Shown: positions 6,063 through 56,438 of the stretch, one piece after another | Layout of the letters: each line of letters opens with the position of its first letter | Numbering within the stretch: position 1 is the first letter of the stretch | NCBI GenBank assembly: GCA_000310025.1 | Contig: FN648481.1 | Location: 18,405-82,404 of the forward strand | Direction of reading: 5' to 3' | Length of the DNA: 64,000 nt | DNA from: Ectocarpus siliculosus | Lineage: Eukaryota > Sar > Phaeophyceae > Ectocarpales > Ectocarpaceae | Notes under the pieces: generated by a model | Database searches by the model: none | Seen by the model: the letters and a program-made list of their open reading frames with translations, nothing else | What the model was told of the DNA's origin: nothing | Made by a program: the position numbers and the translations under genes

Positions 6063-6084
6063 GGAGTAGCGTCCACCTGTGTAG

Positions 6085-8422: not shown

Positions 8423-9360
8423 TCTGCTGGTGTGTCAGGATTCGCCACGATGACGCCGCCGGGGGAGTCTCGCCCTGATTCCACCCGCCTCGACTCCCTT
8501 CTACGCCCGCTCTTGCCTCTACTGCTCCGGTCCTGCTGCACCCCTCTGGCCTCTTGTCTGTGGCCGCTTGTCTGTGGTCGTTTCTCAAACACAAAAGCGA
8601 GAAAAGGGCGTTTGCCCGGCGAAGAGGTACCGCACCGATCTCCCGTGGTCTCCTGTTTGGTCCGACCCGCGAAGTGGTTATCTAGGTGTAGTCTCCCTCT
8701 CCCTGCTGGCAGATGCCTGGACCCGGTTGTTCGCCATTGCAAATGAGGTTGCACTCTCACTCTCAGCAGTAGCCCTCCTATTTTTTTTAGCCCGCCATAG
8801 GGTTCAGAACCAGAACCTATTTTTCACCACAACGCTTCATCCCTCATCCCGCGCCTTAGCATGCTAGTGATGGACTCGACCCCCGGAGCATACAGCCACA
8901 TGCAACATCAGCACGGCAGAAGCACAACCCTTGCAGACGAGGTTCAAGCAAAGGGCGGGCCACCGTTATGAGTGCAGCACCGGTGGGAGACCGCTCGAAA
9001 CATCAGGCGCCACTCGGCGAGAACGAGAAGTCGGGGTTCCGCCGCGTCTTTCATCGGGGGACAGCTGCGGGAGCGACAGTGATGGTAAGCACTCTAAAGC
9101 CACATATACTTGTGGGCATTCAATCTCAGCGTAGGTAGACAACCAGTCCATTGTTCCGCTTCGTTGGTTACAGACCTGGTAGGAGTTGACTTGATACCCA
9201 CACCATATCGCATATCCAACGAAACAAACTCGAACTAGGTAGGAGCTACAGGCAGGTACTGATATACTGCTGTAGACAGACACGTAACACCACGTGCACG
9301 ACCCCGGTAGCTCCGATGCTCTAGTGGTTACCGTCGTAATCCTGCTACCAGCAGGTTCAA

Positions 9361-9407
9361 CGCTCTCTCTCTCTCTCTCTCTCTCTCCCCCCCCCTCTCT
9401 CTCTCTG
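9361..9407. repeat. CT microsatellite and C-rich tract (copy B)
   Basis: Counterpart of 971-1012 with a longer CT dinucleotide run and a shorter C run. Confidence 0.9.
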
Positions 9408-13788: not shown

Positions 13789-14455
13789 AGGTGGCCGTTC
13801 GGCAATTTTTCACCCTGGGCAACGTTCTTCTACGGTCCAGAAATCGCGGACCTTGGACAAAGTTCGCCTTTGAGGTGACGTTGGGGCCATTTTACCTTGC
13901 CCAGGGTGGGTGCAAGGTTACAGATCCGCTTGACCTTACACAAGCTTCGACCCTGTGTGACCCTGGGGCGTTGTCCACCTTGCGCAAAGGTCCTTGGAAG
14001 GTCGAGAAGTCATCGACCTTAGAAACCGTTCGACCTATTGTGATCTTGGTGCTTTTTCCACGTTGTCCAAGGTCCTTTCAAGGTCAAGAAATCGTAGGCC
14101 TTGGGCATGGCTCGCCTTCGTGGTGACCTTGGGGCTTTTTTACCTTGCGCAAGGTGCTTCCAAGGCCCAGAAATGGCAGGCCTTAGACATGGTCCGGCTG
14201 TGAGGTGACCTTGGGGGCATTTGTACCTTGCCCAGTGTGCGTGCAAGGTTACGGTTCCGCCGGACCTTGCCCAACGTTTGACCTTGCACTACCTTGGGGC
14301 CTTACTTACTTTGCGCAAGGTGCTTCCAAGGCCCAGACATAGTAGACCTTGGACATGGGCACCCTTGTGGTGACCTTGGGGGCATTTTTACCTTGCCCAG
14401 GGTGCGTGCAAGGTCTGTCCAAGGTACCGGTGGTGGGTCAACCTTGTGTAAGGGG
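13789..14455. repeat. Degenerate tandem array, about 83 bp unit (copy B)
   Basis: Same CCTTG/CAAGG-based array as 5395-6062, unit for unit, with scattered substitutions. It lies immediately left of the helicase fragment. Confidence 0.8.
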
Positions 14456-14477
14456 GGGGTAGCGTCCACCTGTGTAG

Positions 14478-15663
14478 ACGCGCCTGCTGGGACGGGTAAG
14501 ACACACACGGAGAGCGTACTATGCGCCCACCTACGATCACTCAATAAATTAGCCCTTTGTGTTGCCAGTACGGGCATCGCAGGTCTCCAACTACCTGGTG
14601 GGTGGACTGCGCACTCCATGTTCAAACTACCACTGGATGAAAAGAATCAGCGGTGCAACGTGCAATATCTCCGCTGAGTCGCAACGAGCAGAAGTATTAC
14701 GTAAGTGTGACCTTATTGTTTGGGACGAAATCCCAATGAGCCATCGTTTTTCTGTCGAAGCTCTTAATCTTACACTCCAAGATCTTATTATGGGCAATAA
14801 CATGATCATGGGAGGAAAGAATATCTTGCTAAGCGGTGATCTACGCCAGATAGGGCCTGTCGTCAAACATGGCGGGCCCGCGGAAACAATTGATGCGTCC
14901 ATCATTTCTAGTCCGCTTTGGAAACATGTACAACGTATGCGTCTTACCATATCGCAGCGCGATCGAGAGGACGCAGCGTACGCGGCGTTCGTCCGAAATA
15001 TCGGTGTTGGTACCCAACCGCATGTTACAACAGACGACGGCGTCGATGCCGTGCCATTGGCATACGTTCATAGCATGCCAAACATAGCCTCTGACCGATT
15101 CGTCCTTGACAACACAGACTCTTTTGAAGAATTGATCAATTTCGTGTATCCGGACATTCCTGACGCCGACCCGACTGAGTTCAAGGCTAGAGCCATCCTT
15201 TCGTCAACCAACGCTACCATAGACACCATTAACGCACACGTTCTTGAAATCCTTCCAGGAGACCTTCTCACAGCATACAGTTGTGACACCGTCGATCCTG
15301 ACGCGACTGACGACGGTTTGGGTTTCGTTGCCGCAGCTGACCTCCACGCTACTGACGTCTCTGGTGTACCGCCTCATGCATTGGATTTGAAACTGAACTG
15401 CATTGATTGTCATGATCACACGAAACCTATAAACTTCAAGCAGGGCTTGGTTAATGGTCAGAAGGCTATCGTTCGTTGATACTCAAACACGAATTGTGCA
15501 TGTAGAACTACTAGACGGTCTCTCAACGCTCGTTCTCATCCCACGCATTCGCTTCAAGACTAAAGTCGGCAGCAATGGTATTGCTTTCTCACGATTGCAG
15601 CTTCCTCTGCGCGTGAGCTACGCGCTAGCCATCGTTTTGTCGGAGTTGCAAATTGCGCACTAG
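14478..15663 (+). pseudogene. Helitron-type PIF1 helicase fragment (frameshifted, truncated)
   Basis: The SF1/PIF1-like helicase domain of Helitron Rep-Hel proteins unwinds DNA during rolling-circle transposition. Visible motifs in order are Walker A (DAPAGTGKT, from 14478), TGIAG, Walker B (LIVWDEIPM, about 14717), LLSGDLRQIGPV (about 14826), the RNIGVG motif, AILSSTNATID (about 15193), LPGD, LVNGQKAIVR and the downstream LIPRIRFK and LPLRVSYALAI segments. The frame is broken twice: once near 14650, between the segment before Walker B and Walker B itself, and once near 15470 after NGQKAIVR. The last helicase motif (KSQGQTL type) is missing beyond 15640, and the Rep nuclease half is absent upstream. 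It is therefore a dead fragment. Its first codon coincides with the right edge of repeat copy B. Confidence 0.88.
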
Positions 15664-34526: not shown

Positions 34527-36438
34527 GACTCACGCACCACGGTTGAATCGCGGGGGGGGGGGGGGCCCAAAGGAGATGGAGAGGAATTTTCTTTCTCGAC
34601 GGGGGGGTCTTGCCACCGAGTATACATGACTTGTGGCGGTGCTTCCGCGTTTTTGGTGTCATACGGTGTGGTGCGGCGAGATAAACGCCTCTAGGATATA
34701 TGACATTTGTAACCTTTTAAACAGTTATTTTCCGGGTGGTCTTGCCCCTCTGTCGGAAGAGCTCCGACCCGCGGCCCAACATCACTTTTCCTCTGCAGTG
34801 CATGCCTTCATTATTATCGCGAGGAGGGGTCAGTAGTCCCACACCTCCGGTACACTCGCGAACAAGCACTTTCCTATGTGGAAGGTGCGAGATGCAGGGA
34901 AAAGCGCATGTTTTCAGAGATTGTTAGTGTTCCTTCGGAGATGAATAGCAATACGTCAGGCATGGTTAGTTAGTGGGAATGCCATGTGATACCTATCGGT
35001 TGCCTTGATCTGTTCCGTTTGAGCGAAGTGATTGCTTTTCCGGACAAGCGACGCCGACGAGGCTCCAGCTACCCAGTTGGCGTTGTCCCCCCCGCACCCC
35101 CCCCTTTCGAGTACATTGGCAGCCCTCGGTCAAGACGGCTATCTATTCAGAGATGGTTTACATGTTCTACACGTCAAGTTGGAGGTGTTGAGCGCGAAGT
35201 GGCATATGCACACGAAGTATCTTGGAATGCCGCCTAGTGGTAACAGCTGCGAGACTGTGTTTCTGTTTGTTTGTTTTTCTTTTTTATGGGTTTCGCGATA
35301 GCATTGTTTCGATTTCACCTGTGTTTTCCAGCTTAATACCTGGGACGTTGTAAAATCTATTGTCGGCTCTCGCTGCATGTGTTGGAGAACCGAGGAGGGA
35401 AAATATGTGTGCTGCGTTGTGGCCACCGAACACAATCGGCCGCCACGCTAGGAGCGTAAGCGCTGGCATGTCCATGACTGCCACTAGGCTGCACGCTGTA
35501 GCTTGAAGGCAAGGTTCTCTTGGAGAGTTGTCGACACACCGCCAATACGTTATGTTGGGAATGTCGCGTATCTCCACGAGAGCGAGTAAATTTAGCGGGA
35601 AATGCGCCATCATCGCGGTCTGGGAAGGATGAGAACCGGTGGATTTTCGTCTGTTTAACCTGTTTAACCTCGGAAACTACAGTCAAACTTGGGGGTGCCA
35701 TAAAAAGATGAGGAGGTTGCGTCGGAGAAGAGGCAGGCCAACGCGCAGGGGTGGACGCCTCAGTTGGGGCGGCTTCGTGGAAAAGGGTGCAATCACCATA
35801 ACCCCCTGTGGTATCATATTTTATCAAGTACCCTGTCGGCATCCTCTTTTACGAATCCCGGTGAGGATGTGGGGTCAATGTCCGCAACTGCGTTTAAAAC
35901 TGCTCTCGGCGGCTGTTTTGGGAGATCAATCTGATCACTCTCCATGTTGTGGTCGAGGCACAACCCGTCATAACAGCACCGCAACGTAGAAGACGTGATT
36001 GGATCGCATGTACTTCTTGCCATCCTGTGGACGAGGATACAGCTGCAGATGGGATAGACAATCGGCAACACATACGACTTCCATCATGATTATCGCTAAT
36101 TCACAATTGAATGTTGGAGCACCCCTTCCGCTCCACAACAACCACAACTTTTTCCAAGGACGATGTTCCGGAAGAACATCGGTCGTAGTCGACGACGAAG
36201 TGCCTGTGTGTTGATAAAAGGCCTCTCACCACATACAATACCCTCCAGGAACATCCCAATTGCGCCCTACGTAACGGTTACTTCCGAATCACACCAAACA
36301 CCCGGTTTGCTGCCACTATACAGTGCATTGGTAGCTCTCTCCGGCGGCGCGAAACGCCCTTGACCGACGACGACGACAATTGGAACTTCCCCGTTAGATA
36401 CCACACTTGTTGGTTAGGCTTCCACCACCAGCGGCCCC
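34527..36438. other. Intergenic region between convergent genes
   Basis: About 1.9 kb between the stop of the kinase gene and the stop of the minus-strand LRR gene. It contains a poly-G run (34551-34565). Both 3' UTRs must lie here. No open frame with splice or motif support was seen. Confidence 0.6.
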
Positions 36439-39400
36439 TCATAGTCCCTCTTCGTCCAAGTGTGTCGACAACTGCTGAGTAGGGAGCACCAGGGGATCCG
36501 TCATCGCTTCTCCTCCACCGTTTGCGCCTGGGTCGGAACCACCCTCGGACGGCAATATTTTTTTGTTTCTGCGGGCGCGTCTCCGTCTATTGTTGTTGCC
36601 GCCGCCTTCTTCTCTGGTGCTCTTGTCCCCACCGTTACCTTTGCTGCCTCTGAATATTCTCCACGTGGCGCTACTGGGGCGACTGCGGCTATTATCACCG
36701 GCAGTGGCATCGCCCTCGGCCGCATGTTCTTCCGGTTGGTGGTGCTGACCACCATCGTCACCGGTTGGTGATTTTCTCGTTGTTACTGTTGTCACCGCCG
36801 CCGCCGTCCGGCCATTGTTCGTCGCTGTGCTCTCATTTTCTGCAGCTTTGTGACCGTTGCTGTCGCCGGCGTTGGTATTGCTCATTGAGAGCGTGTTGCT
36901 GCCCCTTGATTCGGCGGAGCCCCTCTTGCTCCAGGGTGGTGATTTGCCCCGACCAATGTCCCCTGAAGTTACCGACCTACCAGGGCTTCGGGTGCTGGCC
37001 ACCCTGACAGCACTCAACGCATTGGCCTTTTGGGTCGCTTCTTTCTGGGCTTCAGGGGATATGTGTTCGTCCTGCGACAGAATAGAGGAGGGAGGGGGGG
37101 GGGACATACTCATGTTTTGGATTCCTTTCTTATAGGCCATTGACCACGTGAGGGGGGGGGGGGGGTATGCGGGCATCGGAGAGTGGGGGGGCGCGCTGTG
37201 TATCCTGCGGGCAGAGGAGAAAGTGGTGACCAGGGAAGAAGATAACGACACCTTTGTTCTCTTCTATAGTTTGACCGTACATCCTTTGACCTTTTGGAGT
37301 GGAAACACCAGCCGGGGGAGGCGGAGAATATATCAACAGAGCCCAGCAGCTTTCTTGGAAATAGGGTTCAAGAGTAATTTGGGGTAAACTGTTCGAGGCA
37401 GTTCAAGACGAATTTTAAGGTCCACTGTATTAGACAAGTAGACAGACCGGAATTCCTCTCCAACACAGCGGCACACACGATTCAACCAACCACAGTGGGA
37501 TGCGATGAAGTCTCACGTATTTTCGTATACTTTGCGGTGCACGCTTTGTCTGGTGGTTCGTGTTTTGCGTTGTACCGACCTCAATTTATCTGGTCGTTGT
37601 ATCTAAACGACAATGCCAGCATAATACCAACGGTATCTAGCGCACCGGCTGGAATAATAGGTAGCGTTTGACGATGGCATGTGAAATACGTATGGTAGTA
37701 GTAGTTCTTCGACAATTCTTGCGAGTACCATGCCGTGCCGCGGTGCCTTGGACCAACAGCTCGGTCAGCAGGGACACCGCTCTCGTCACCACCACATTGA
37801 TGAACCTCACCTCACACTGCTGACACGCCCAGGAGAAGCGCCTCCCCCTGGCTGCCTTCTTGTTGAGCATTGTGTCCGTGTCCATCCTGGCCTCCAGGTT
37901 CCACTTCCGAATCTGGAGCCTCGCGTGCTTCTCCAGGAGTGTCATCTTATACCCCAGGACAAATATCGACATCACGAAGCTCATCTGACGGACGCCGGGT
38001 GTAAAGATTCATGGCAGCGTATCATGTTGCAAGTGAGTACCCAGGCACCCACTGAGCGCCTGTAGAAACTATCACGCACGGTTGCTCGCACTGTCCAAAA
38101 CTGGATACACACGCGAACACTTTGCGGACATCAATATACACGTTGATTTAAAGGTACACCATGCACGTTGTGCGGAATTGAAGCGCAAGACGGGACGTTG
38201 TCTATGTTCAAGAGCAGTAGATGGTTGTCATGTCACGACTACCAATCATACCACCGTGGTGGAATGAAAAATACTGATAGGATCGATTGAGCTTTCTCAG
38301 AGGTCAAGACAGTTTCTTCAAGGTCGATCCAAAAAACTAAAATGATTGAAGCGGTCCGAGCCACTCAATCTTCTGCCCCTGCCCCTGAAGACGTTGAACG
38401 AACATCGCCACTGCAAACAAATACAGCTTTTTTCTTTGCCCCAGGTCGCCACCAACCGATCACCGTACGTTCATCTGTACTCACAAATAAACAAATGAAA
38501 CAGAGACTACTCCAACCTAACCTCCCCCGTCCCCTTCGCCGTTAGAGGTGACACCGATGCGCGAGAAAATGAACCAAGGCGGTGTCAATAGGGAACGCAC
38601 CATGAAGACGAGATTGCTGGCGAGGTCGGGCTGCGTCACGAGGAGGTACATGTTGAGACCCAGGAAGGGCACGTCCTCGAAAATGGCGATGATGATCCTC
38701 ATGGAGTTTAGACTTATCAGGCGCTGGACGCCGATGTGATGGCTCAAGTACTGCATGCAGGGTTCATGAACACGGTGGTGGTGTTCGCGTACAATCCGAC
38801 AGTGGCACGGCAGCATTGGCCCGACAAAGCGCGACAGTACATTAAAGAGAACGTAAGGACCAACGTTACATCAGCAAACCCCGGCAGAACCTGAACGCTT
38901 TAACTAGAGACAGCGGCAACAGACCGTGACAATCAATGGAGGAGCGTTGGTCAGCATTTCTGTGCCTTGTGTGCTTCATACGCGCCATTTTCATCGAAAA
39001 CATGCATGGTTGGTTTCGCCTTGTCAAACGATCACGAAGAAGCTTGACGGTATTCCCAACTGGTAAAACGAAGTACAACGTCGGGTACAACGACGTCGAC
39101 GAAACTACGTCAAGGCCTGAAGTGGACCAAAAAACGCGTTGCTGGAGCATTTCTTCACCGGTAGGTGCGCACCTTCTGAGCCCCTTCGCTGGTCTAGGAT
39201 TGCTCATTAAATACGCCATGTAGACGCTAGACCAATAGTCAACGCCTGCTTGAAGTCTTGGGCGTGCTTACAAAACGATCGCTGATGCTAAACTCCTACG
39301 TAGCATCACCCCCACCTTGTTGCCACGGTCGAACGGCACGTGGATACGGCAAGTCCGTTTCTGACTCATGATCTGCAATATTGTGAATTGCTTCTCGTAG

Positions 39401-42400
39401 TACAGCATGTTGTTTCCGGTGATCGCTAGCCCGTGCATTCGCTCCTGGTTTTAAGTCGCCGGTCATGCACAAGAGGTGGGGGGGGGAGAGACGGGACCTT
39501 AAGGGGGAGGGCTTGGTCAAGCTTAGGATGATGGTGTTGGGAGGGGTGAGATGGATCTTTGGGCGGTTTTTGAACGGTCTATCTATCTTTAGGCTCATCC
39601 TGGTCTGAAGCTCTCCGCCTATTTAGCCACAAGTTTGCCAACTGCCTCGTTAAACAGAAGGCCTACCACCTCTCTCTACGAACAAGTAGCGTAGCGTCAA
39701 ATGCATGGTTCTGCGTACCTCCTGCATGTCGAGGATGATCATGGCCCGGGTGTGAACTCCGTGGAGCGAGGCCACCAGCGCAAAGGCCACGACGATGGTG
39801 TAGACCACTTTCATAGCGCCGGTGAGCGCGGCTGTGTAGAGCAGCGATGCGTACGCTCCGAGGTCCGACATGAGGTCCATGATCTCCACGCCGCTGAAGA
39901 GACTGTCAAGGTGGTGATGAGTTTGGCGCAGATGCACGCGGCATTCCCAAGTTAGTACGGCTGCAGCTGCAGCTGCTGTTGCTGATGCGAATCAACAGTT
40001 TGGTAGGCAAGTTGATCAACAACTTTTGGCTTGGTTCGGGATACGTGGATTTCGTCATGAGGTCCATGCCAACCCTAAAGCGACTGTCACGGCATGCTTT
40101 TCAGAAGTTATTCCGACGAAGTGCTACCGTTGACGGATACTCCTACAGGTCTAGACGAACCAATGGGTATTTAATGGTGCAAAGTGGGGGTATGGTGAGG
40201 GTCACTCAAGGTTTGGGCGTCTTGGTCTCTCCTCACCCCACTAAAGACACTGTGACTCCTTTGGTCTCGGAACTGTATGTAATCTCGCCGTAAACCGGGC
40301 TAGGGACAAGTGTACGCGACGGCGTTGTTGGAACCTTGCGATAACATGGAGCGAATGCCATTGCTTCCTCCCTCCATGAATCAATAAACGTTTGGGTTGA
40401 CGGAATTGGGTTCCAGCTCTCCTGCTTTTTAAACTAGCATCTTTTTTTAAACTAGAATCTCGACTGACCTTATCCAGAACTGTTGCCCATATATGAAGCT
40501 TTTCATCTCCTCGTTCAGCTTCATGTGCACCTTCTCCTTTACCGGTATCTGTTGCATTCGTACAAGATGTCGATCGCGGCCGTGCTCTGTTAGTGATGGG
40601 TAGGAGGCGGTGGAAGCAACTCTTTCTGTTTAACCGCGAGATGGGGCGAATACTGAGACACAAAAGAGCCACCTGAGCTTGACCCTCTGTGAAGAACTGA
40701 GAGCTTCATGCGCAAGCAAACCGGGTGACGAAAGCGGCTGTGAAGTTGATCGGGATGCACTCAACTGGTAGATTGATGACGACGCCATTCTGCCAAAACC
40801 CGTACTGGTTCGGAGGAGAGACACTAGTTTCTGTAAAGACGCTTTCGTGTGTACAACAGTTTATTTCTTTTTTGTGCGTAGTTGAGCGCAGGATCAGGAA
40901 GGGACTGGGGCCTAGAGCAAGAATCACCGTGGCACGGTTGCAGACACGACTGCGCCACATCGTTGCGATACGTGAACATCTCGAGAAAAAAAAAAAAGAT
41001 TCGGCACACGATGTAAGCCACACAACTACCGTAATAATGATACAAACGTGTGCGTGCTTACACGCGTCTCCTGGTGCAGCGGCTACACATACAGATACAG
41101 GTATACATACAGCGTTAGGGAGCGCTGAATACCTCGATGTTGTCGTCTCGACTCACCGCATCCCCGCAGTGCTTCTGCAAGAACACCCCCACGAGGGTGA
41201 ACACCACCAAGATTATCCCTGCGATCAGGAGGTACAGCCCGATAAGCGTGCCGTCCTCGGAAAACTCATCCGTGCACTCAGCTGATCCTTCGTTGGCCAC
41301 CTTTTTGGGTTGCCAAGGGGAGCGGTCAAGCGTTCACGAGGAACACCAAGGTGGGGAGAAGACAACACGGGTGTGAGAAGTCCGCCGCACGGGCCAGCGA
41401 AGAGGCGGTTTCCTCGCCCCCACCTTTCCTCGAGAGTGAGCGATTCCCTGCTCGGATAGGTTGGTCGACTGGATGAAAAAAAGTGCGGTCACACCTGAGA
41501 AGACGTATCGGGGGGAGACCACGAAGCACCACTTCGTCACTGCAACGCAGCAAGCAGCACGAGATCGACTCCGCCAAGCTGCCAAACAGAAAATGCGTAG
41601 TAAACAAACCCTGCTTGTTCCAGCGCTCGCTTGCCGTCCCTCTCTCACCTCACCTTGTAGGGCTACGCACGCACATAGCTTCCAGGAGTTTTCATGGTGA
41701 CACCAACGCACAGTCTCAGCCAGCGTAGCCACGGTAAGGGAAGATCTTCACGAGCACGGTCTCACCTGGTTGTCATCGCAGGGAATGCAGTCTAAGAGCG
41801 ACGACGCCCCGGCTATCGGCTGCGAATGGTTCGAAGGGCACTCGATGCAGGTCTCGTAGCTGCTCGCTCCCACGCTTCCCGAGTAGTACCCGGGCCAGCA
41901 GTCGGTGCACATGCTCTCCGAGGAGAGGCCTGAAGAAGCGCAAAAAAGGGTTAAGCCTCGCCGTAGAACCATCTGCGAGAGAAGGACCTCCGGAGAACAG
42001 GGAATATGCAACATCTGAAAGGGAATGCGAGGTGACTTCTCGAGCGAAAGAACCCCTTGCCACGCTGACATAGTTCGGCAAGTACAAGAACTCGCCACTC
42101 GCTGTTTCTGTCCCTAGGAAACACCAGAGCGATCCAACACGTCGCCTTTTCGCGTCCACGGGGCGTATTTGTGGCAACCCCGACGATGTCTTCGCCCGGT
42201 AATGTGGGCCATCATGATCGGTTTACGATGGAACCGGTTCTGCAGTACTTTGTCTGCCTCCCATCTAACGATATGCTCAAGCAGACACACCGCTTGGACG
42301 TGGGTGTTCTGTTACCAGAAATATATATTTCTCCCCGTCCCCCCAAACACACGATGGCGGCATCGTCCCCCCCCCCGCCCTTCGGATGTCATCCAAATGG

Positions 42401-45400
42401 CCGCAACCGTCTCCCACCTTGTACGGCCCCGAACGTCCCAGCTGGACACTCCACGCATCCCGTCACCGAAGACAAGCCGTACGATCCTCCGTAGAACCCC
42501 AGAGGACACTCCTCGCAATCGTACTGAGACGTGGCCCCGACCGTGTCGGAGTATGTCCCAGCCGAACACGGGAGGCACAGCCCGACATGATTTCCGTACG
42601 CAGGTTTGTAGGTGCCGGCGACGCAGCTCTTTTTCATGATGGCGGGGTGTTGGGCCGTTGTCGAGCAGCAGGGGGGCAGGGGCAGCAACGGAGGCGTTTT
42701 GTACTCACGGAAAGCCGTCGCCGGGGGGAGGGTGTGAACGCAGCGGGAACGTGCGCGGCGTAGTGATGTTCTACCACAGATCGGTCCTGACAGTAAGGAC
42801 CATCGGGGACCACTCGCTGTGCTTGGGATTAACTCCGGGGAAAGACTGGACTATATCATGTACATACGCCAGACGAGATTCAACAAGGTCCAACACGTCG
42901 TAGGGGATGATGACAACCATTCAGGCCAATCCACGGGTTTAGGAGCCTGCTTGCCAGTTCTGTGCACAAGCAGTACTCAATCACAAACAAGCTGTGCCTG
43001 TCCGGCTTCCGCTACTCCAGAACCTGAACCTTCAACGTTTGTCGGAGCCGCGAATCGCAAACCAAGGCACATGGCGATCGATGATTCGTACAAACATTAC
43101 ACATTGCGGTGGGAAAAGAAACGAGACCGTACACGCTAAGTTTTCTACAGCAGTTGACGCTGAATTCTACCTCGCAAGCTCTACTCGTGGTGTTGAAGAT
43201 GCGCCCTGGTTCACATTCACAGGACGCGATATTCACGGCTCCGGCCGTCAGCGTTCTCGACCCCGAGGGACACGCCAAGCAAGACGGCTCGGAGTCAGCT
43301 CCTCCCTGAAACAATGTAGGAAGCGAGCAAAAGACGATCGCCAGTAGTAGAAGGAAGTGGGGGGTGGAGGGGGCGTCACCCGCTGCGATGGATAGTTCTT
43401 GTTAACTGGACCGTCCGAGGTGATAGGGGTAGACCCGGTCCTATGCATTCCAGGAGTCAGTCGCATGTTCCAATCGGTTTTGCGGATGGGCACCCGGAGC
43501 GTAACTTCAACATGATAGGTACTGACAAAGAGGCCACGCATTGAGGGACTAACGATAGGCACCAGTATCGCGGGAGATCAGCGTGCGACACCCCAATGCA
43601 CTGTCGTCTCCGTATGTTCCCACAAGTAGCTCAAAAGCAGGAGGTGAACTCTTTCTCCTAGCAAGGGGGGAATGGAAGGTTACTCCAATAGCAGTTGCTG
43701 GTTCCTGCACATTTTCTCGTTTTGCACCCTCACACCTGCTCGTCGTAAAAGTTGATCGCGCAAACACACTGACTCTTGAGCCAGCTGCCGTTCTGCATCG
43801 TGGTCGAATTCGACGGGCACGGCGAACACACGCCTTCTGCGAGGGGGTCGTCCTCTTTTTCCAAGTTGCGGTACGATCCCAGCGGGCACTCCGAGCACTC
43901 CGAGTCACCGCCCGATCCTTGAAGTCTACGCGGACAAATCGTCGGACGGAGGCAGGATGAAGGGGCGCACGCGGGGCAGAGAACGGGGAGTGCAGTACTT
44001 ACGTGTCCCATGACATGTGTTTAGCAGTAGTAAGGGCAAATAGGAAGGCTTACAAGAACGTAGCAATCGCTCCTGTTGGTTGTTCCAGCAGCCCCAACGC
44101 CGATTCGAAAGCGAACCAACCTGGCAACATTATCTACCATGTTTAGGCGTCATTCTTAGCTCAGTTGGGGATGTCTCACCCGTCGTTGCAAGTGCAGACC
44201 GAGTACCCGTCATAGGCATGATCCAGCGTGACAGCTGCGACATTCTCATCAGCTGACGGCTTGAAAGCCGGGCACACAAAGAGGTCATGCACGGTCGATT
44301 TCTCATTCCATGCACCGGCTGCCGTAGTGGTGGTGGCGTCGATAAAATCTGGCAAGTCTAAGCCTGAAAGGCCGGTGTTTTCCGCGAAGAGAATGAGCAG
44401 CTCCGAGTAGGAAGCCGGGACCTCTCCGACAAAGTTACCGTTGTCGGAAACGTCAAGGAGGTCTATCCGCCTGTTGTCCGTATCTACCACTCGTGGCGGC
44501 GACCCTTGTTAATAAGTTGCACAGCGCAGATGAAAAGCACAAAGAGAGTGGTTTGAGCGAAACATTTTTGAACCGTGGACATGGAGGATGAAACATGACC
44601 TCTTCAGCGCTATGGTTGTAGTCAGCGACGATGACAGCACAGTGCTTTAGTTTTGTTCTACGAAACACGATGCTTGTGTGAGCACGTAGACGGACCAACT
44701 CAGGCAATCCCATACCATTCGTTTCCTTCTTGCAAATCACTAGCATCCCATGTTTTCGCCCTCTCCCAGGTTTTTCTCAATCTTGTGGGCATCTCCGGAT
44801 CTACGAGTGCCTATTTTCGACTTCTCCATGTTTCACCTATTAAGTCGTTCCCGCCCACATTTAACACTCGCAATAGAGGTGCCGCAACGCTCGATACATT
44901 CCCTCCGCACCCCGAGCTTCCAGACCCATCGCAATAGTAGTACAGAGCAAGAGCGTCGTCCACGGATCCGGTCAGGGCGTTGTCGCTCAAGTCCAGAGTC
45001 TGGAGCGATCTCCAGTTGGCCACTGCCTGCAGCGCAACGTATCCTGTGGCATTCATATTGTTTCCTCCGAGCAGCAGGCTCCGGAGTTCCGGTAGCCATG
45101 GTGATGAAGGCTGAAGGTGAACCAGTGGGTAGGAAGAACTGTCGGTCACGTTTAGCCAGGCAGCTGGAAACGAGCTGGGTGCGTGTCGTCCGGGAATGTG
45201 CATTCAAAAGAGAGGGCTCGGTAAGACACGTTTTGAGTACCTCGCAGTATCACATACACACGTCGAGAAGGCATTCGATCGTGAAGTCGACATTGGCCAA
45301 AAGGTTGGCTGTTGCGTTTAGAGTAATTTCTTGTGTTGACCATAGCCCCTAATGCTGATAGTAAGTACTAGTCATATCGCATGCTTCTACAACGTACGGC

Positions 45401-45976
45401 AATTGTTCCTAAAATTTCAAATGCACGTGTGTGTGTCGAATGCTCTCACCCGGATATTCTGTTGTTCTGCAGCGATAAGTGCCGTAGCATCGATGCACCA
45501 CTTCCCCATGCGGCCGGGAAGTATGACAGCTCGTTACCAGAAAGATCGAGTGTCTCCATGTTAGGCATCATCCCAAGATTCAACGGCACCGGGCCAGATA
45601 GTTGGTTGTCGGATAGATCCATTTCTTCGAGCGAGATGACATTGGTGAGGTCGGTCGCCTCGGATACGTCGCCCACCAACAGGTTGTTGGACAGCGAAAT
45701 GCCCGTCACGTTACCACCTTCGCTATCGCACGTGACTCCGTACCAGCTGCAGACGCCAAGCGAGTCATCTGACCACCCCGTCGAGTTGGCCCAATCCTGC
45801 CCATTGGTTGCGTAGTACAGGGCCTCGAGCCCCGCTATTTGAACTTCTTCGGTGTATGCCGAGGCGAATGCTGTCGGACACAAATACCCCGCTGTCGCCA
45901 CCGCTGCCCATAACGCTCTGACAAGACCGCTCGGCCAAGGCAGGAACAGCATATGGCAAAGCGGAAAGGGTGTCAT
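36439..45976 (-). CDS. LRR / Cys-rich (GCC2-GCC3-like) multi-span membrane protein, paralog 1
   Basis: Exons, in order: 45976-45450, 45174-44837, 44504-44180, 43925-43736, 43305-43171, 42628-42418, 41929-41766, 41300-41157, 40548-40469, 39902-39719, 38750-38601, 37984 to about 37816, and 37071-36439. All junctions down to 38601 agree in phase. A signal peptide is followed by a plant-type LRR N-cap (GLEALYYATNGQDW, CSWYGVTC) and about six LRRs (DLSDNQLSGPVP). Next come five or more Cys-rich modules of the ephrin-receptor-like type (CSAGTYSDTVGATS, CWPGYYSGSVGASS). The first membrane span is LYLLIAGIILVVFTLVGVF. Further spans are in 39902-39719 and 38750-38601 (FEDVPFLGLNMYLL), then a basic coiled segment (LLEKHARLQIRKW). 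The 211-codon last exon is a disordered Ser/Gly/Arg tail. No kinase domain is visible. The junction between 37816 and 37071 is unresolved and may hide another exon. Likely a cell-surface recognition protein; its ligand and signalling output are unknown. Confidence 0.85.
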
Positions 45977-46372
45977 CCAAAATCCTATGGCGTGCACGTC
46001 TCATACCCTCCCCGTGTTACTCGATGCATGCTGGAGAGTGTTTGGCACGGGCAAGACCGGATTGTATGATTTGTATGACGACGGTCCCCGAAACGACGTC
46101 AATTCCGCCGCACCCAGCGTTCTGAGCGGTGTACTCTGTACTCTGTAGATCACAGCCGCCGCCGTGGTACGATGTGTTGTCGGCCAAAGCATCCAGTTTA
46201 GCGACAAGATATAGACAAGCATTCTGCTTCACAACCACTTGAACTTGCAAACATCTACAAGTAGCAGTAGAGAGGGCAGGCTATGACACAGACTGCTGTG
46301 GTCGTGTTTCGCTTGTGACGCGGCGAAGCTGATGAAATTAACTAGGGCATTCTCCATGCGCCCGAACGAAGA
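45977..46372. promoter_or_regulatory. Shared intergenic region of the divergent LRR genes
   Basis: Only 396 bp separate the two start codons, so both 5' UTRs and both promoters must fit here. I see no clear TATA box or palindromic operator-like site. It is a bidirectional-promoter candidate by position only. Confidence 0.5.
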
Positions 46373-49300
46373 ATGCAGACATTGCCGATCTTGGGCTTTG
46401 CGGCAGCAGCACTATTAGCAGCACAATGGATTCGAGGTGCCGGTGGTGTATCGTCCTCGTACTTGGAGACCCAGCAAGTTGGCCTGGAGGCCCTGTACAA
46501 CGCGACCGGTGGCGAGCAATGGGCTTCTTCCAGCGGGTGGAGGGATGCCACGCTCGGAGTGTGCGACTGGTACGGGGTGGTGTGCGATAGTGATGGGCGG
46601 AACGTGACGGGCCTAGCCCTCGCAGGCAACGGCCTCGCGGGAAACCTCTCCGAAGCGGTAGAACTGTTCGACGTGCTGTCATTGATAAGCATAGACCTGT
46701 CAGACAACGAGCTGGTCGGTCCTGTCGCGCTTGGCTTCGGGTTGATGCCAGACCTGGAGGTGCTGGATCTCTCGCGAAATGACCTGTCTTATTTTCCCAC
46801 GAGCTGGGGGACCGAGGCCTCGTCACTGCGGCATCTGTCGCTCCAGCAAAACGAGATATCCGGGTAAGCCGACACCCCTACCTCGTTTTCCTGCGGTACA
46901 AATGGATCAGGCCCTCACACTTTCGGTTGGGCTTACCGTGCTGCATGTATTCGATATTATTGCAGGCAACACAGTACGGTACTTTTGCATCCACTAACGG
47001 CGGCGATCGTACATGATGCTGAAAGGAATACAAGTACAACGCCCGAACACCAGTTAATCTTTGGATTGGGTAGCACACGGGGCCCCCGACCCGAGGCCGG
47101 TGCTAAGCCAAGTACAATGGCCGCCCCCACACTAAAACCAGTACAATAGTAGCCCCCATACTGTCCAGATGTACATGTATTGCTAGCGAGGAGGCGTGCA
47201 GATTAGACATCAAGTTGTCCTTTAATGGCGGTTGGATTTGTACTGTTGCCCACTTGCTGTATGTATCCGATGACGCTGACATGTCGACTTTCCTCCTTCG
47301 CTGGACGCACGCGCAGAACGCTACCCTCCGCGTGGCTTGAAGTCATCAGCAGCACATCCTACCCTCTTGTTCATTCAAGGGGGGTGTCCGTGTGGCTACC
47401 CGAGCTCCGAACCCTGGCACTCGGTGGCAATGCTATCACCATGCCAGTTTACCACGCGCTTCAGTCGGTGATTGGCTTTGCGTCCCTGCAAGTCCTCGAC
47501 CTCAGCAATAACTACCTCGACGGCATCGTTGGCCAGTGTTTCGAGCTGCACTCTTGCGCGGGGGAGAGCTTAGACGCTTGCGACTCGATAACGGTCAAGA
47601 CCGGCGCTTCGAATCTCGCGATATTGCTGCTGTCCTCGAACAGTATCGAGGGGGAGCTCGAGACACACTCGTTTCCGAGATCGTTGTCCGCCTTGACGGT
47701 GTCCGACAACCTGCTCACCGGACCCGTTCCAGAGGACTGCGCTCAGTTGTCGGTATTTTTGGCTGGTGAGAACAAGTGGATGGAAGAGGAGTAGGACCGG
47801 GGGACGGAGACAGGGTAGGGGTTGGAGCGGGAAGGATGGGGGTGTCGATGGAGGTACAAGTTGAATCATGTCGTAGTCCATTAGAAATGTATGGATAAAC
47901 CTAAATGGTGTACAAGATCGTGGCTTTTGGCCTTCAAACACAGCCCTCCCTCCCAATGCAAACGCCGCCAGCCACAGTCAACTTGTAGCCTTTAGCATTA
48001 TCGGCAACAACCCGCCCTAGGCTCAACGTGTGGGTGTTACAAGCGATATCGAAAGCAGAAAAACGTACAAACCCTGCCTCTCATTATCAAGCCTTCTGAC
48101 CTACTCCGTAAACCTTGTGCACGCACTTGGCGCAGATGGAAACGAGGGATTGAACGATACGTCTCTTCCTAGTTTCGCGTCGTACGCCAACAGCAGCGAT
48201 GTCGTCACAAGGCACAACAACATGTCGTGCCCTGTGATCTCGGGCCAGGACACAGCGGGGCGCGGTGTGCACTTGAGCCTCGACCCCTCGTACCTCGGCT
48301 ATTCACACTGTGTGTGTATCAAAGGCATGCAGGTATGTTCATTCAAAGGGTGCAGACCATACCGGGAGGGTTTGGTTGGGGAAGAAAAATGCCCCACTGC
48401 GTAGTAGGCAGACCTACCACTTCTTTGGCGGTGGCATACCACGTTTGAAAGTGTGCAAGACGACCTAAAGACGTTTGAAAGTTTGCAACTCTACTTCTGT
48501 TGCACGGCATAAACGTTTTTATTCTTTCGTCGTCGCTGTGGAGACCGCTTGCCATGTTTTCGCGCCGACCTTTCTTGTGAACATCCACATGGGGCGGCTT
48601 TCGTCCTGTGTTGGTAGGGGAACGCTGAGGACGGGTGCCAGGCCTGTCCGGAAGGAACCTACAGGGGAGCTGCTGACCTGTTTGCCACGCGTTCTTGCAA
48701 GGCGTGCCCCACCCACACTTGGATCTTGACCACTGTAAGTGAATCGCACCATACATGCATGCATGGCTCTCAGAATAGACACCCTAAGGAATGACCGAAG
48801 CACGAATACCGGTAGATGAATACCCTCTGTTGCAAAATATGTCTGCGGATAACATGCTTCGACAGATAAGGTTGGTCCACCCACATTGTTCCGCAAACAA
48901 TCTCACACCACGGTCTCGAGGCTGCTCTCTTCGAGAATTCTTTCCAAGTGGCGCGTAGTCGGTAGCTTAGTGTTGTCCTTGCTCATCCCCGACTAGGATC
49001 TTCGCCTCCCACGGCCACAACGCGTTCTCCAACACCGCGACCACAACCGCACAGGGGTCAGAAACCGTCTCCCAGTGCAAGTGCGAGCCAGGCTTTTACG
49101 ACACTCTCGGAGGGGTCGGAGACGGTGTACCCTCGTGCTCCGCGTGTCCGAGCGGCAGCGTCGCGTCGGACAGCGTCGGGGCGATCAGCGTGGCGGCCTG
49201 CTCTTGCCCCGCGGGTCGGTACCTCGACGAACCCGCGGAGACCTGCACAGACTGCCAGGCTGGAACCTACAAGGTGCCATTGCTTAGTTATTTAGTTGGA

Positions 49301-50420
49301 GGCGGCCCGTTTGCGAGCCAACCCCGTCCCCGAACCCGCCCGGAGAAAGAAAAATGCTGGCGCGGAAAACCCGGGACAACCTAAAACTGGCACAACAGTG
49401 GCAGCAGAGCTGACCTTACCCTGAACCCGACCCCACGGCGTGGGCACGAGTACTGGGCCGATTCCTCTTGGGCAGTCCGGCTAAGTTGCCCGCCCGCCGC
49501 CGTTCTAAAGTATGTCGTAGGCAGCCATCCTCGGCACTTGGAGCGTACCCCAACTTAGGCGCGGCGGTCAGGCCCTGCTTCCGACCACCAGTACAGCGAC
49601 GGGGCAGGGTATTGACCTCTGAGAATAGGGGTAAAACGTACCGCTGCCCCTTGTTGCTCCTCCCGAAGCCTTTGGGCTGACGGCTAAACGCGAGTGAAAC
49701 AACACCCTTGCCTTCTCCTAACCCCTTGCGCGACATCCCACGCCCCACTTCCACTCTGATGCCCTGTGGCGCGAACAACGCTGACCTTCGATTCTGCGGG
49801 GCACCGGACATACTGTGCGCCAACCATGATCGTTGCGGATTGGCGACGGTACCCTTCAATTTTCAGACCACGGTTGGGAATGACGTCAGCCTTTGCGTGC
49901 CGTGTCCTGAAGGGACCTACTCACCGCAAACCGGAGGCACCAGCTCCGACACATGCATCGTAAGTTTTCCTTCTTCAAACGCGCAATCGTTTCACCTGTC
50001 GTTTCTGAAACGCCAACGCTCAACGAAAGCCGGTTGTCACACCCCACGGCGAATAGATCCCACGTCAGTCTTTAGTGTCATGGATGAGAGGCTCCGCTTG
50101 TTCGGACAGGGTACACCAGTGTACCGCAGCATGCGGGCTGCTCAGAGCAAGCAGCATGACAATCCTTGATATTTCTGAGGATAGATGGTTTTGAGCCGCT
50201 TCTTCAGTTTTTTTGTCAAGGGTATGCTGAATGGTCCTTTCATAGGGGGGAATGATTGACGTCATGTTTGCGGCGCGAGCTGCAGCTATTTTGCCCTCGT
50301 CGTCCACTGTTCACGAAGGTTCAGATAACTGGATTTCGCGTTGGACTCGCCGATCACCCCTCCTGAATAGTCTCACAATCGTTCAAGAGAGCCGGAGGCG
50401 TATATACTGTACCCGAAAAT

Positions 50421-50488
<68 letters not shown>

Positions 50489-53400
50489 TGTGTGTGAGTG
50501 TGTGAGTGTGTGTGTGTGTGTGTCTCCTGCAACACACAGAGATAGACAGGCTGGACATTGTTGCTGCCCTCTGTTTTAGCCTTTAGCCCCTGAACTATAG
50601 CCTGTTGCTTAGACCACTCGATCACGCCCCCCCCCCGCCTCGGTGTCCGCGGGCTTTGCAACCGACATCACAACCTGACGGAACTTGTGGGCGGGCCCCC
50701 ATCACGTTCTCAACCCCGTTGCAAATACGCTTTTCCCAACAACAATCGTTGGTAGCCCTGTGAGGCCGGCACGTACTCGGAAACGAGCGGGGCGGGATCA
50801 TCGTCGACCTGTCTGCCATGCCCGAGCGGAACGTTCTCCGCCAAGACGGGGCTGTTCGAGGCGGAACTGTGCGGGAGTTGTCCGGCAGGATACTACTCAG
50901 AAGACGAAGGTACGTTTGGAGAACGGGTTGTAGCGGGTATCAATCTTTTTCACCGCCCCCGCCCAGCAGGTTCTAATAGTACTCCGCTTGACAGCCCCCG
51001 CCGAGCCAGCTACAGCGTCTTTGGCGCCTGTGTCCCGAACCCTCAACAATCCGCGCATTATTTATTTTTATTCCGCCTAACGATACGCCTCTGATTCGCC
51101 ATGTTGCGATCCCACTGATTGGACTGGGCCTTCCTCCTCTCCCTCCTCGTCTCTACCTGCGGTGAGACGAGCAGGGGCCACGAGTGTGGACGTGTGCCTG
51201 CCCTGTTCTTCGGGAAAATACTCGTCGGAGCCTGGTGAGATGCGAGCCGATTCTTTGACACCCTTCCGTGTAGATGCCCAACACATAGACTGAGTCTGCC
51301 GCCCACGATCGGCTTGCCTCATAGAGACGTCGTTTCGTGGTGCAAGCTCCCGTGCGAGACGGGTAAGGTAGCGGAGAGTACGCAAGTGCCTGCTGTGTGG
51401 TACTAAGTAGCCAATGTTTTCACCCTGCGGCTGTACTCCGTTTCGTTTGATATGCGTGGCGAAAGTTCTGGAGACACACCAAGGACAAGCATTGAATGAG
51501 TACGCACACACCCTCCGCCCCCGCCGTTGCCGCTGCCGCGTGCGTCTCTTCTCATTCGAGACGCGTGGTCCATGGTCCAAACAAAGACCAGAACAAGGAG
51601 CAAAGGAACAACACCCCCCCACCTCCCCCCCTCTGCCTACTGAATAAGTCAATCGTGCGTCTTTCTTCGCCCTCCTCACCCCCAACCAGGCGCGTCATCC
51701 AGCAGGGCGTGCGAGCCCTGCCCCGACGGGTTCTCGTCACTCGGAGGCAGCCACGAGTGCGAAACGCTCCTGGCGAACTCGCGGAAGTGGCTGGCGATCT
51801 ACCTCGCCGTCGGAGCCTCCACCCTGGCTGGGATCTGCATCGTCTACTACACTTGGCAGAAGAAAGGTATAGTCCATACCGGGCACATTGGTGTTGATGT
51901 TGTGGCGCTTTACCTGCGCAACGGGTTCAAGTGCCGAGAGTTTGTCGAGGACGGGCGTTGTTGGGTCTCTCCTGTGTTACAGTAGTGATGGACGTTTCCT
52001 CCGACATTCCTCCGGGAAGCGTGTCAAGTGGCATCGTTAGAACGGGGCTACGGAGATCATGCGGCGAGAATCAAATTACCGAGCGTACTTGCACACGTCT
52101 AACAGGTATCGGGACGCTGCACCGCACGCGCAACGAGGCCAATAAAAAAAGCCATAACAAAAGCCAGAGCGTGTACCCCACATCGCGCCTCTCTCGCTCG
52201 TATCAGCCTGAAGTGGTACCAGCTCTGTTGCGCTTATGCCCACATCACTCGCCGCACGCCATGCGCCTCCCTCCACGACCAACCCCCCACCCCGCCGCGG
52301 CTCGATAACTTGTGTTTCTGCTACGTAAGCACCCGAAGCATGCCCCTCTTTTCACGCGTCTCGATTCCAACGAACCGCACGATCCGCACGCAGTGCACAA
52401 GAAGAAGAAGCTAAAGGTCGATAGTCGGACGGAGACGCCGCTCAAGATGACCGGGGCCAAGAGGAAGGCGCACATGTGGGCAGTGTTTTTCCACACGTTG
52501 GAGACGATCGATGTCATCACGGTGAGCGAGGGGACAGTTAGATAAAGGCCGTGTGCTTTCGACGGGGAAGTGCAGTTAGCCCGGGGGGGTTGGGGGCGTG
52601 CTCATGTTTTGCAAGACCTGGCGGTTAGACCATTGACCACGCGGTCTCGAGAGGACGGAGCATTGTTCCCGGGCGGGGGGGTTGAGTTGATGGGATGAGC
52701 GCGCTCAGGTACTGCTTCGCCTGATTGTTTGACAATTGACCACCGCATGTGGCCTGGGCTGCCTGCGGGCCATTTGTTCGCTTCTCGCCTTTTCGTTGGG
52801 TCGAGGCGTGGCCTGATCGCACGAAACCTGCCTAATCCTAAGTCCTCATTTGTTTCGTTCGGATGTCCGGGCCGCTCGGCACCCAGGGCAACGCCCTCTT
52901 CGCGTACCTGCTGGACATCGGCGCTATCCAGGGCGTGATGCAGTTCATCTACTGGCTCGCCGTGTCTCTCGGAGTGGCGCTAAACGTGTTCCGTTTGTAC
53001 ATGGTGAGCAAAGGATGTGCTTGTTCTCTCGCCTGCGCAGGATTTTGGGGCCGTTTTTGTTTTGGGGGGGATTTCCGAGGATTGTTACCCGTTGGACACG
53101 CACGAAGAACGTGCCTTGCACCCCCGTCAACGGCGCTTAGAAGGATAACTACTTTTATCATGACCACAGACTATTTTTGGAGGCCTGAAAATTCGCCCGA
53201 GGTTGTAAGCGAAGCAGTCGTGTTGTACACGGAGCACAGCAGCAGTTGCCGTTGCACGAGCGCATCCGTTAAATGGGGCAGGCACCTCAGAAGACGGGCC
53301 TGGGTGGAGAAGCCGCGACCTGATATCACCGACATGCCTAAAGTCTTTAGTTTGAGGACGACAGTAAAGTCCACTCTTTACATTAGCTTCCACAATACCC

Positions 53401-55420
53401 ATAATGCATCCCGCATGGACCGCGTTCGCAGCAGCTACATAAATAGCTCCGGGTAAGAACAAAAAGTGTCACATACCGCCTGTTTACCCCCCCGCCGTTG
53501 CGACCAAAAGATAATCTGGATGAAGTGGATGCTAGTGAACGTTTCGGTGGCGGAGAGGGTTGACAAGGAAGGGAAGAAGGTCCTCGTGGTGTACATGCCG
53601 GCCAACCAGTACTTGCCCGGGAGGAGGCGGTCGGACCGGCGGATCATGACCCCCGACGACGCCAAGATGGTGCTGGAGCTCGTGAAGGTCCGCCCCGCGT
53701 GTTCTTTCTTGCCTTGCCGCTTGCCACCCAGCTGCGACGAGGAACCAGAGGTCTTGGAAAATAGTTTTGGCCCCGGGAAGGTGTGGTGTGGACCACGTGG
53801 AGCTCTCTGGTACTGAAACACATTGGATCGTCGTTTTGATGATTGTTTTGGCAATGGCTGTGCCACTAATACGGCGCCCACCGTTGGAGCTCCTAAGCCT
53901 TGAGGCCCGACCCTCGGTGTTTCTCCGGTGTGTCGAGACACCGATGCCGGTTGGGGAGATCTGGGAAAGTAAGCTAGATCATGTATCTCACACGCCTCCC
54001 TGCCCAAGTCCGTCATGACTGACCACCACCCCCTACTTGTACGCGCGTCTTTTTTGTTGCGGCCGGTGCAGATCCTGAAGCACCTCCAAATCAACAAGTT
54101 TAAGGTGCAGCTGGCCGTCGTCATGGACTTGCCCCTGACCATCCTCAACCTCTGGCTCTTGTGGATGGTGGATCCGGAGCTGATAAAGAGCGCCCTGTTT
54201 CTGACCAGCCTCATCATTGCCGTCTTCAGCGCTGGCAAGATCAGCACGCTAATAGAGTATCACCTGGAGCTGCGTCAGCGCAAGCGCAAGCTCGAGCGAC
54301 TCTTGCTTGTGAGTTATCCGTCGTCGTCGCTACGACGATAAAAAAACTGGTTCTTGTTGCGCGTGTGAAACTTTTGTTCTCTGCCCTCTACTTGTTGACT
54401 TCACTTTCCACACGCATCTCACCGGTAAGAGACGAACACCGGGCGGACAAGTCCATACCCCCCTCTAAGTAGAGCGCAAGACCGCCCCCCCGCCCCAACA
54501 CAAACACCAGGCGTCGTCATCCTACCCATGGTTGCATCGAGCGTGCATTGGCATGAGCGCGATCAGTGGTCATTGTCGAAGGGGCCACGACAACAGCTTT
54601 TGTGTGGTGGTGATCTGATGGTAACTCCCGTAGCCAACCCGTCCCGCCGTCATTCCATGCTTGACCGTTTCACCCCCAACAAGAAGAAGAGCAAACTAGG
54701 TTGTCTTTGATGTCGCCGAAGCTCGTGCCATCCCGTGTGCTTCGAAACAACGCGGCGGAGCACGCACATCATCCTATCTCCGGCCGCTCGCACGCTCACG
54801 TTTGATCGACCGTTGTTGATTTCGTTGTGGTCGATGCCTGCGCGGGTGGTGCTGTGCCGGTGAACTGCAGCTAGAGCTGAGGAGCTCCCGAAACGGGTAC
54901 GACGACGACGTGATAGTGGAGGACAACAGTCGCAACGACACCCAGGAGGCAAGCACCGTAGCCCTACCATATCGCGCCGTTTCGTGTGCTTACGCCGTCC
55001 TTCATGGCACATGTGTGTGCATGTCCGTTGTACGATGTTCAGAGTCAGTCCACCATGGCGCAGCTACACTCACTCGTGCCCCGCACGTAGCACCACGTGG
55101 TTGCCATTCCGCGAGCCATGAAGTGTTGAAGAGAGGTTCTAAACAACAGCGAATCAATAGTGTAGTCGATCAACGCTTATTATTGATGCGACATCAAGAG
55201 CGATCAACCCACTCTCTCTTTGGGTTGGATGCGCACGACAGGGAGAACGACGACCCCCCCTCCCCCCCCTCCTCCAAACGCCGCCCGCCCGTTGCACTCA
55301 AACTACTCGCTGATGGTGTGTGACGCTCAGGGAGATGAATGCTACGAACAAGGCTACCCCGAGACGCTTCTCGAGGCCCACGGGGATTTGATGCGCAACA
55401 TTGCCACCACGGAAACCGAG
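46373..55420 (+). CDS. LRR / Cys-rich (GCC2-GCC3-like) multi-span membrane protein, paralog 2
   Basis: Fifteen phase-consistent exons: 46373-46863, 47317-47765, 48136-48332, 48618-48734, 49055-49273, 49867-49959, 50756-50909, 51175-51234, 51690-51866, 52394-52521, 52887-53003, 53511-53687, 54072-54308, 54871-54948, 55331-55420. They total about 928 residues. The ATG at 46373 opens a signal peptide (LPILGFAAAALLAAQW). An LRR N-cap (GLEALYNATGGEQW, CDWYGVVC) and LRRs follow, then Cys-rich modules (CPEGTYSPQTGGTS, CPSGTFSAKTG). The first membrane span is WLAIYLAVGASTLAGICIVYY with a Lys-rich cytosolic flank. More spans are in 52887-53003, and in 54072-54308 (VVMDLPLTILNLWLLWM and LFLTSLIIAVFSAG). 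An acidic segment follows. The C-terminus is uncertain: the frame may run to a stop at 55540, or splice to 55990-56107 and a basic tail ending at 56438. It is homologous to paralog 1 in domain order and in most intron phases. Confidence 0.87.
50424..50523. repeat. TC then TG dinucleotide microsatellite
   Basis: A TC run (50424-50470) changes directly to a TG run (50471-50523). It lies in the intron between exons ending at 49959 and starting at 50756. Confidence 0.97.
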
Positions 55421-55989
55421 GTATCAGCGAAAGGGAAAAGCACGTGCCGTTTCCTGAATGACCCCGAGGTTGCTTCCCAAAAAACAGAAAGTATTCAGCT
55501 GGTGTGGAGGTGGCCTTCAAACAAGACCCCATCTCTGTAACGTTTGTCGAGCATGATTCCTTCTTTTCACAAAATTAAACCAAAAACAGCACGCATGATT
55601 TTTGTATTGGGTGATGTCTCTTTAGACTTACCCTTGTAGACACAGGCGGGTGTAGTGTTCAGGCAAAATCGTAGGGTGTGTGTGCAGTTACAGTAGTTGT
55701 AGCATAGAGGTGTGGTGTGTCAATCCGCTCGGAAAAAGATTTGGGAAAGTGAAAACTCATCATCGCGGAAAGAACATACCTTCGGTGAGTGCCCACATCA
55801 TACTCTGTACGCCCGGCCTCAACTGTGTCTCTTCGGAACTTTGCGCCGGCAGCAGCAGGCAAGCATGTGCGAATTTCAGAAGTAAGAGATGGGATCCACA
55901 CGAGTCGGTTGCCATGGAATGTCAAACCTCGGGGATCCACAAGGAGCAATGGCTGTTGTGCATGTGTAACTTCCATCCCTTGTTATTAG

Positions 55990-56438
55990 GTGGCATCTCT
56001 CTTCAGAGCCGCGCAATTTTCCACGACGACGACAATCGAACTCACACACGGCAACAAACGGTGCACGCGAAGCTGTTGTTCCCCACAAGAGGACCGATGG
56101 CACCACGGTAAACGCCGTTCATTCCCCGCAAGCAGGTAACCTTGGAGACGTAACACCCCCTCCCCAACCCCGTGCCACCCCCCACCCCCAACCCTTGTGA
56201 TCTTTAGGGTTCGCCGATTCCTCGTCGGAAAAAGCGAAGGTATCTGATGAAGCTTTCACCCACCCGGCGTTCCCCCAAGAACCGGGTGACCAGGAGGCCG
56301 CCGGGGCGAGAGAACGGGAGCGGCGGCGAGGGGCGCAGCACGTCCCCGTTGCATCGGCTCGTCATGGCTGTCTCGCCCAAGCGAAGCCGGGTTGCTGCGG
56401 GCTACGCCACGCTACCCCAGGAGGAGGAACCGCACTAG
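55990..56438 (+). other. Tentative 3' exons of LRR paralog 2
   Basis: A candidate exon 55990-56107 lies between a TTATTAG acceptor and a GTAAAC donor. A candidate terminal segment follows the acceptor TCTTTAG near 56206. The most protein-like frame of the latter is a basic tail (SPTRRSPKNRVTRRPPG) ending at the stop near 56438, but this needs entry in a phase the preceding candidate exon does not supply. Transcript evidence is needed to decide between this and termination at 55540. Confidence 0.35.

Follow-up and report, generated by a model that had tools for sequence, protein, structure and literature searches.

The 64,000-nucleotide stretch of Ectocarpus siliculosus DNA analyzed here (contig FN648481.1, positions 18,405 to 82,404; hereafter the window, with a GC content of 0.50-0.59) carries two genes that diverge from a short gap. 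Gene A comprises 14 exons on the minus strand (45976 to 36439) and encodes 1117 amino acids; gene B comprises 16 exons on the plus strand (46373 to 56438) and encodes 1003. The start codons at 45976 (-) and 46373 (+) enclose 396 bp (45977-46372), presumably the site of both promoters, and the gap length given in the initial annotation is exact when measured from start codon to start codon. The outer limits that it gave for the pair, 36439 and 56438, are the stop-codon-inclusive ends of our two models.

We assembled the models manually, guided by reading frames, GT-AG splice sites and phase. All junctions are GT-AG and in phase, there are no internal stops, and the introns are 254-796 bp long; one intron of gene B contains a (TC)n repeat followed directly by (TG)n over ~100 bp (50425-50523). 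Less certain are the start of B exon 5, for which an alternative acceptor at 48997 is out of phase with the chosen donor, A exon 9, which is short, and the exons of the two tails (A14 and B14-B16). All 30 exons were scored for codon usage, and every one exceeds 98.5% or more of the intron pieces that lack stops, with the scored exon left out of training and A14 and B14-B16 never included in it; the null consists of introns of the same hand-built models and the test is therefore not fully independent. Per-codon scores are negative for A14 and B16, yet above the null, and the signal of A14 is weak, being reached by 1% of the null.

The two proteins are collinear over the LRR region, a cysteine-rich stalk and a membrane module, in agreement with their description as a paralogous head-to-head pair. 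Identities between A and B number 163 of 335 in the LRR region, 99 of 230 in the stalk and 43 of 176 (24%) in the module after the first span; with three different shuffle windows, none of 500 shuffles per window reached these alignment scores. The first span adds nothing to the local alignment score (43/176 with or without it), and the tails show no similarity beyond chance, their score being reached by 43-80 of 500 shuffles. The ungapped match of the first coding exons from GLEALY to ISG had been counted by hand as 81 identities over 128 residues, and this count is exact. As had been claimed, phase-consistent exons join the LRR, cysteine-rich and membrane parts in a single reading frame in both sequence-based models. 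The concern that these parts might belong to separate genes is answered directly at the stalk/first-span junction of B, where exon 9 (51690-51866) holds both.

Both proteins begin with an N-terminal hydrophobic stretch, followed by an LRR cap and eight LRRs. These features, together with the first two stalk cysteines, are encoded by A exons 1-3 (45976-45450, 45174-44837 and 44483-44180) and B exons 1-3 (46373-46863, 47317-47765 and 48136-48332), with several LRRs per exon in each gene. A signal peptide had been proposed for both proteins; the N-terminus of B is hydrophobic on both hydropathy scales, which is consistent with this proposal, while that of A is so on only one of the two. The LRRs score over the Pfam cut-off in A and B, and a relaxed motif counts eight in each (seven in A by a stricter motif). 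Pfam, motif and sequence matches all bear out the assignment to plant-type LRRs with an N-cap; among the best 60 of 169 matches, the LRR part matches plant LRR receptor ectodomains such as GSO1 (E 1.6e-39) and FLS2 (2.1e-38). The dN/dS of the first exon (~0.12) is the lowest of all parts, a rough value with dS near saturation, and suggests in rough terms that the LRR cap and first repeats have been kept.

The stalk is encoded by A exons 4-8 (43925-43736, 43305-43171, 42628-42418, 41929-41766 and 41300-41157), which carry 25 of the 27 shared cysteines and, in exon 8, the first span, and by B exons 4-9 (48630-48734, 49055-49273, 49867-49959, 50756-50909, 51175-51234 and the abovementioned exon 9, with the last cysteine module). 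The 27 cysteines of A pair one to one with 27 of B, with none to spare. Their spacings are identical in 22 of 26 cases, including all of the last 16, and the ladder consists of CxxC or CxC pairs that lie 20 residues apart in the second half. The introns cut the stalk at different positions in A and B; because all 27 cysteines align despite this, wrongly joined exons are unlikely. The GCC2/GCC3-like modules of the initial annotation correspond to the Pfam family Ephrin_rec_like (formerly GCC2/GCC3), which in whole-protein searches scores 87.7 bits in A (E 4.2e-25) and 79.9 bits in B (E 1.1e-22), over a cut-off of 23.1. On the same protein region it outscores NCD3G, which is over its cut-off of 38.9 in B (45.6 bits, E 6.2e-12) and under it in A (21.0).

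After the stalk, each protein has several hydrophobic segments, as had been noted: four in A and five in B on the Kyte-Doolittle scale, whose cut span 2 of A misses, and four in each on the GES scale, which additionally flags some ectodomain stretches. We infer four to five spans: a first span is followed by a charged stretch, then by two more hairpins ~75 residues apart, and lastly by a tail. By hydropathy and homology to the other protein, the remainder of the module after the first span is encoded by A exons 9-13 (40548-40469, 39893-39719, 39444-39316, 38750-38601 and 37984-37811), with a loop of ~75 residues, and by B exons 10-13 (52394-52521, 52887-53003, 53511-53687 and 54072-54308). Counted as K+R minus D+E, the loops that follow spans 1, 3 and 5 carry net charges of +10, +9 and +2 in B and +1, +4 and +7 in A, and ahead of the first span the value is -1 and -8 in the two proteins. 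A cytosolic position of these loops would agree with such charges, well for four of the six and only weakly for the two that are nearly neutral. Exon 13 of B, with the last hairpin, is predicted from its single sequence as two long helices with a two-residue turn (best model pLDDT 79.9, pTM 0.39; mean pLDDT 67.8-79.9 over five models), and is too small for a fold search. A exon 14 (37071-36439) encodes a hydrophilic tail of 210 residues, rich in Ser/Thr/Gly and Arg, up to and including the stop, and has no Pfam match. The shorter, unrelated tail of B, including the stop, is assigned to exons 14-16 (54871-54957, 55331-55420 and 56208-56438) by phase and codon usage only, and is the least certain part of the models.

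The initial annotation could not place the polytopic part in a described family, and our searches likewise found no convincing one. Pfam searches with the membrane modules alone gave weak matches far under the cut-off (best E 0.052); these searches asked for E <= 10, and the program discards most matches above ~0.1, where weak ones may be lost. No PDB sequence matched at E <= 10, with either a single sequence or a two-sequence profile. In pattern-limited scans, 29 stretches of viral contigs and 116 of prokaryote genomes fitted a peptide pattern and none was confirmed as a relative; each scan started from two short peptide patterns, the scanned sets include few eukaryote sequences, and distant relatives could escape. 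Among the titles and abstract openings of open-access PMC papers, none that we found names this architecture, and an unnamed database entry may well exist. The membrane module, known from two sequences, thus appears to be the new element, joined to ectodomain parts that are known.

Residues common to A and B within the spans are acidic and polar: ExxD in span 2 and DxPxxxLN in span 4. They would suit a module that is itself a conduit, an ion channel or a lipid scramblase-like protein gated by the ectodomain, and the D-x-P pattern in span 4, which strikes us as reminiscent of XK-related proteins, counts in the same direction. The XK-related family is absent from the Pfam matches of the modules alone, among which filters above ~0.1 may drop weak ones, and the PDB search described above matched nothing; we consider a conduit quite improbable.

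The arrangement of the pair had been read as an inverted duplication. Adjacent, inverted paralogues are indeed present, and if the pair arose in this way it did so long ago: synonymous sites are almost saturated (pS 0.72-0.73 for LRR region and stalk), and the duplication is therefore old. Values for the membrane module (pS 0.56, pN 0.54) were set aside, its identity being just 24%. At the DNA level A and B match over 132 bp of the first exon and nowhere else, and a single intron position is exactly common to both. The near-saturated synonymous sites rule out a recent inverted duplication. The gap with 100 bp on each side yields no significant inverted match (best E 0.52), and a symmetric promoter was rejected on this result.

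Co-regulation had also been proposed from the head-to-head gap, and does not follow from it. According to the accessible text of one study, 61.7% of Ectocarpus genes flanking TSS-adjacent intergenic regions sit in divergent pairs, the median gap of such pairs is 409 bp, and gaps under ~600 bp have a nucleosome-depleted region common to both genes, while transcript abundance is uncorrelated (0.054) for pairs under 600 bp (PMC7784034). With an ordinary gap size and uncorrelated pairs in this genome, co-regulation is not implied. Shared chromatin at the A/B gap is likely, and the head-to-head layout is the ordinary part of the observation; in such genomes a 396-bp gap gives no clue to shared regulation.

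Relatives of the pair were sought in the genome assembly (189.5 Mb, 492 contigs). Searches with a single protein proceed exon by exon, which makes the counts lower bounds that distant members could escape. The membrane modules of A and B gave 6 and 4 matches, respectively (E <= 0.1), of which nine lie in A and B themselves and the tenth at C2:7392248-7392403. This C2 copy (L037:2583-4877) consists of seven blocks with 75-82% DNA identity to the 3' end of A and ~1 kb beyond it (window 35467-37984). It has stops within the tail-like part, and A exons 9-12 were not found in the 9.9 kb around it; it is, to judge from these blocks, a decayed fragment of the 3' end of gene A. With the A stalk and first span as query, 4 of the 22 scored candidates reached E <= 1e-5, all of them in A or B. 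The LRR search gave 26 matches at E <= 0.001 among 67 scored, the best after A and B being 36% identical, and the stretch around this relative (L038) has nothing except LRR matches at E < 0.01. A search with Ephrin_rec_like gave 14 matches among 57 scored, three of them in A and none in B; it misses true members because introns cut the modules, as in B. In the six 9.9-kb stretches that hold the other 11 matches the membrane module is absent, tblastn alignments (E <= 0.01) stopping at A 637 and B 626, and so is the LRR motif in reading frames of at least 70 residues.

No larger family was found in this genome: within the reach of these searches the module occurs in both genes and, in part, in the decayed C2 copy. 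On this count the pair is a two-gene family, unlike the LRR-ROCO genes of brown algae, whose repertoire is expanded (PMC11378527). The EsV-1-7 family is another that is expanded in brown algae (PMC7457493), and at least 150 EsV-1-7 motifs pass the cut-off in this genome (150 of 880 candidates scored). Together with the GC content, the intron lengths and the divergent layout, this fits a brown-algal genome.

Elsewhere in the window, a direct duplication of 6.1 kb (1-6084 and 8423-14477, 97.9% identical), which may be recent or an assembly artefact, has an assembly gap of 100 N between its copies (6217-6316). Each copy holds one array of diverged 82-83-bp tandem units (5539-5821 and 13806-14415). 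Just past the second copy, a frame at 14553-15476 (+) matches PIF1-like helicases (E 8.6e-28), and we take a Helitron-type element to be possible there. In a scan of 52 of the 55 frames of at least 150 residues outside 36400-56500, leaving out three from the duplicated stretch, the matches were this PIF1 frame, one NTP_transferase (E 3.4e-6) and one Zn_ribbon_LapB (E 4.5e-4).

Taken together, these results describe a real, well-supported and unusual architecture, in which familiar ectodomain parts are joined to a membrane module of no assigned class. We see about an even chance that A and B, anciently duplicated neighbours in inverted orientation, encode polytopic, kinase-less LRR cell-surface receptors with a membrane output module. 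The N-terminal LRR arch would lie outside the cell and bind a ligand (a peptide, a wall glycan or a partner protein), and a rod built from CxxC units, most of them spaced by 20 residues, would carry it through the wall; both steps are proposed because such domains act in this way elsewhere. The chain would then cross the membrane once and form two more helical hairpins, with the longer loops and the C-terminus in the cytosol. Since there is no kinase, the signal may pass via the membrane module, by partner assembly or the opening of a conduit, or via the two differing tails; signalling by the module is our guess, prompted by the lack of any enzyme found and by the conserved acidic and polar positions within spans 2 and 4. 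The LRR matches to plant receptor ectodomains, the low first-exon dN/dS, conservation of the stalk and module, the in-span residues and the loop charges all count for the receptor reading. Counting against it are a first span that contributes nothing to the alignment score, a module known from two sequences, two nearly neutral loops and a number of segments that differs between hydropathy scales.

LRRs with cysteine modules occur in adhesion and matrix proteins too, which also counts against a receptor. A and B could be adhesion or wall-integrity proteins, whose LRRs and stalk bind the wall or neighbouring cells and whose multi-span part is a firm anchor that does not signal. No catalytic family was found in Pfam for either protein and the tails are unrelated, both of which would suit this role, and brown algae have other described wall-facing membrane proteins (PMC8307928). 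One span would suffice as an anchor, however, and the in-span acidic residues, seen in two sequences only, point to something further; we regard adhesion as rather unlikely.

If A and B are receptors, their alike ectodomains and different tails could mean that they receive related ligands and differ in output, or that they form a heteromer. A broader proposal, which we put forward tentatively, is of a brown-algal receptor class that combines a plant-like LRR sensor, a GCC2/GCC3 rod and a so far undescribed output module of five spans. In this genome the class would consist of one diverged pair with similar ectodomains and different cytosolic tails. Multicellularity evolved independently in brown algae. 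A survey of Ectocarpus counted no more than two LRR receptor kinases (PMC3268121). With their LRRs, polytopic module and lack of a kinase, A and B offer a defined gene pair for studying how brown algae sense ligands outside the cell.

Several known systems share features with the pair. An LRR N-cap and plant-type LRRs are common to A, B and the ectodomains of plant LRR receptor-like proteins and kinases (FLS2, GSO1, MIK2). By contrast, in A and B eight LRRs are followed by a cysteine ladder and by four to five hydrophobic segments, not one. As the initial annotation had stated, no kinase family is found among the Pfam matches of full A and B (E <= 0.5), which separates them from LRR receptor kinases; with more than one hydrophobic segment after the stalk, each also departs from the single span and short tail of kinase-less LRR receptor-like proteins. 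Class C GPCRs have a cysteine domain, NCD3G, beside their spans, and its scores in the pair are divided: over the cut-off in B, under it in A, and exceeded by Ephrin_rec_like on the same region. Class C GPCRs have seven spans, against four to five hydrophobic segments in A and B, and no 7TM family is among the Pfam matches of the pair. The LRR-ROCO proteins are likewise LRR candidate receptors of brown algae, with an LRR-ROC-COR layout and mostly one LRR per 72-bp exon (PMC11378527), as opposed to the several per exon of A and B, for which no ROC or COR match is listed in Pfam searches of the full proteins. Other GCC2/GCC3 loci of this genome, in the six stretches described above, are without A/B-type LRRs or the membrane module. 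Compared by description, the diatom proteins MRP2 and MRM2 resemble A and B: they too are membrane LRR proteins of a stramenopile and have no recognisable kinase domain. They are expressed by mating type, and their authors suggest pheromone reception or adhesion (PMC6261938). This shared broad layout would suit a role of A and B in gamete or mating recognition, as proposed for MRP2 and MRM2, but the matches that the diatom study found outside Pseudo-nitzschia and Fragilariopsis are confined to the LRR, and the accessible text mentions neither a cysteine-rich stalk nor a multi-span module (PMC6261938); such a role seems to us very doubtful. For the receptor reading, in which A and B would serve in surface recognition, MRP2 and MRM2 are by layout probably the closest described counterparts.
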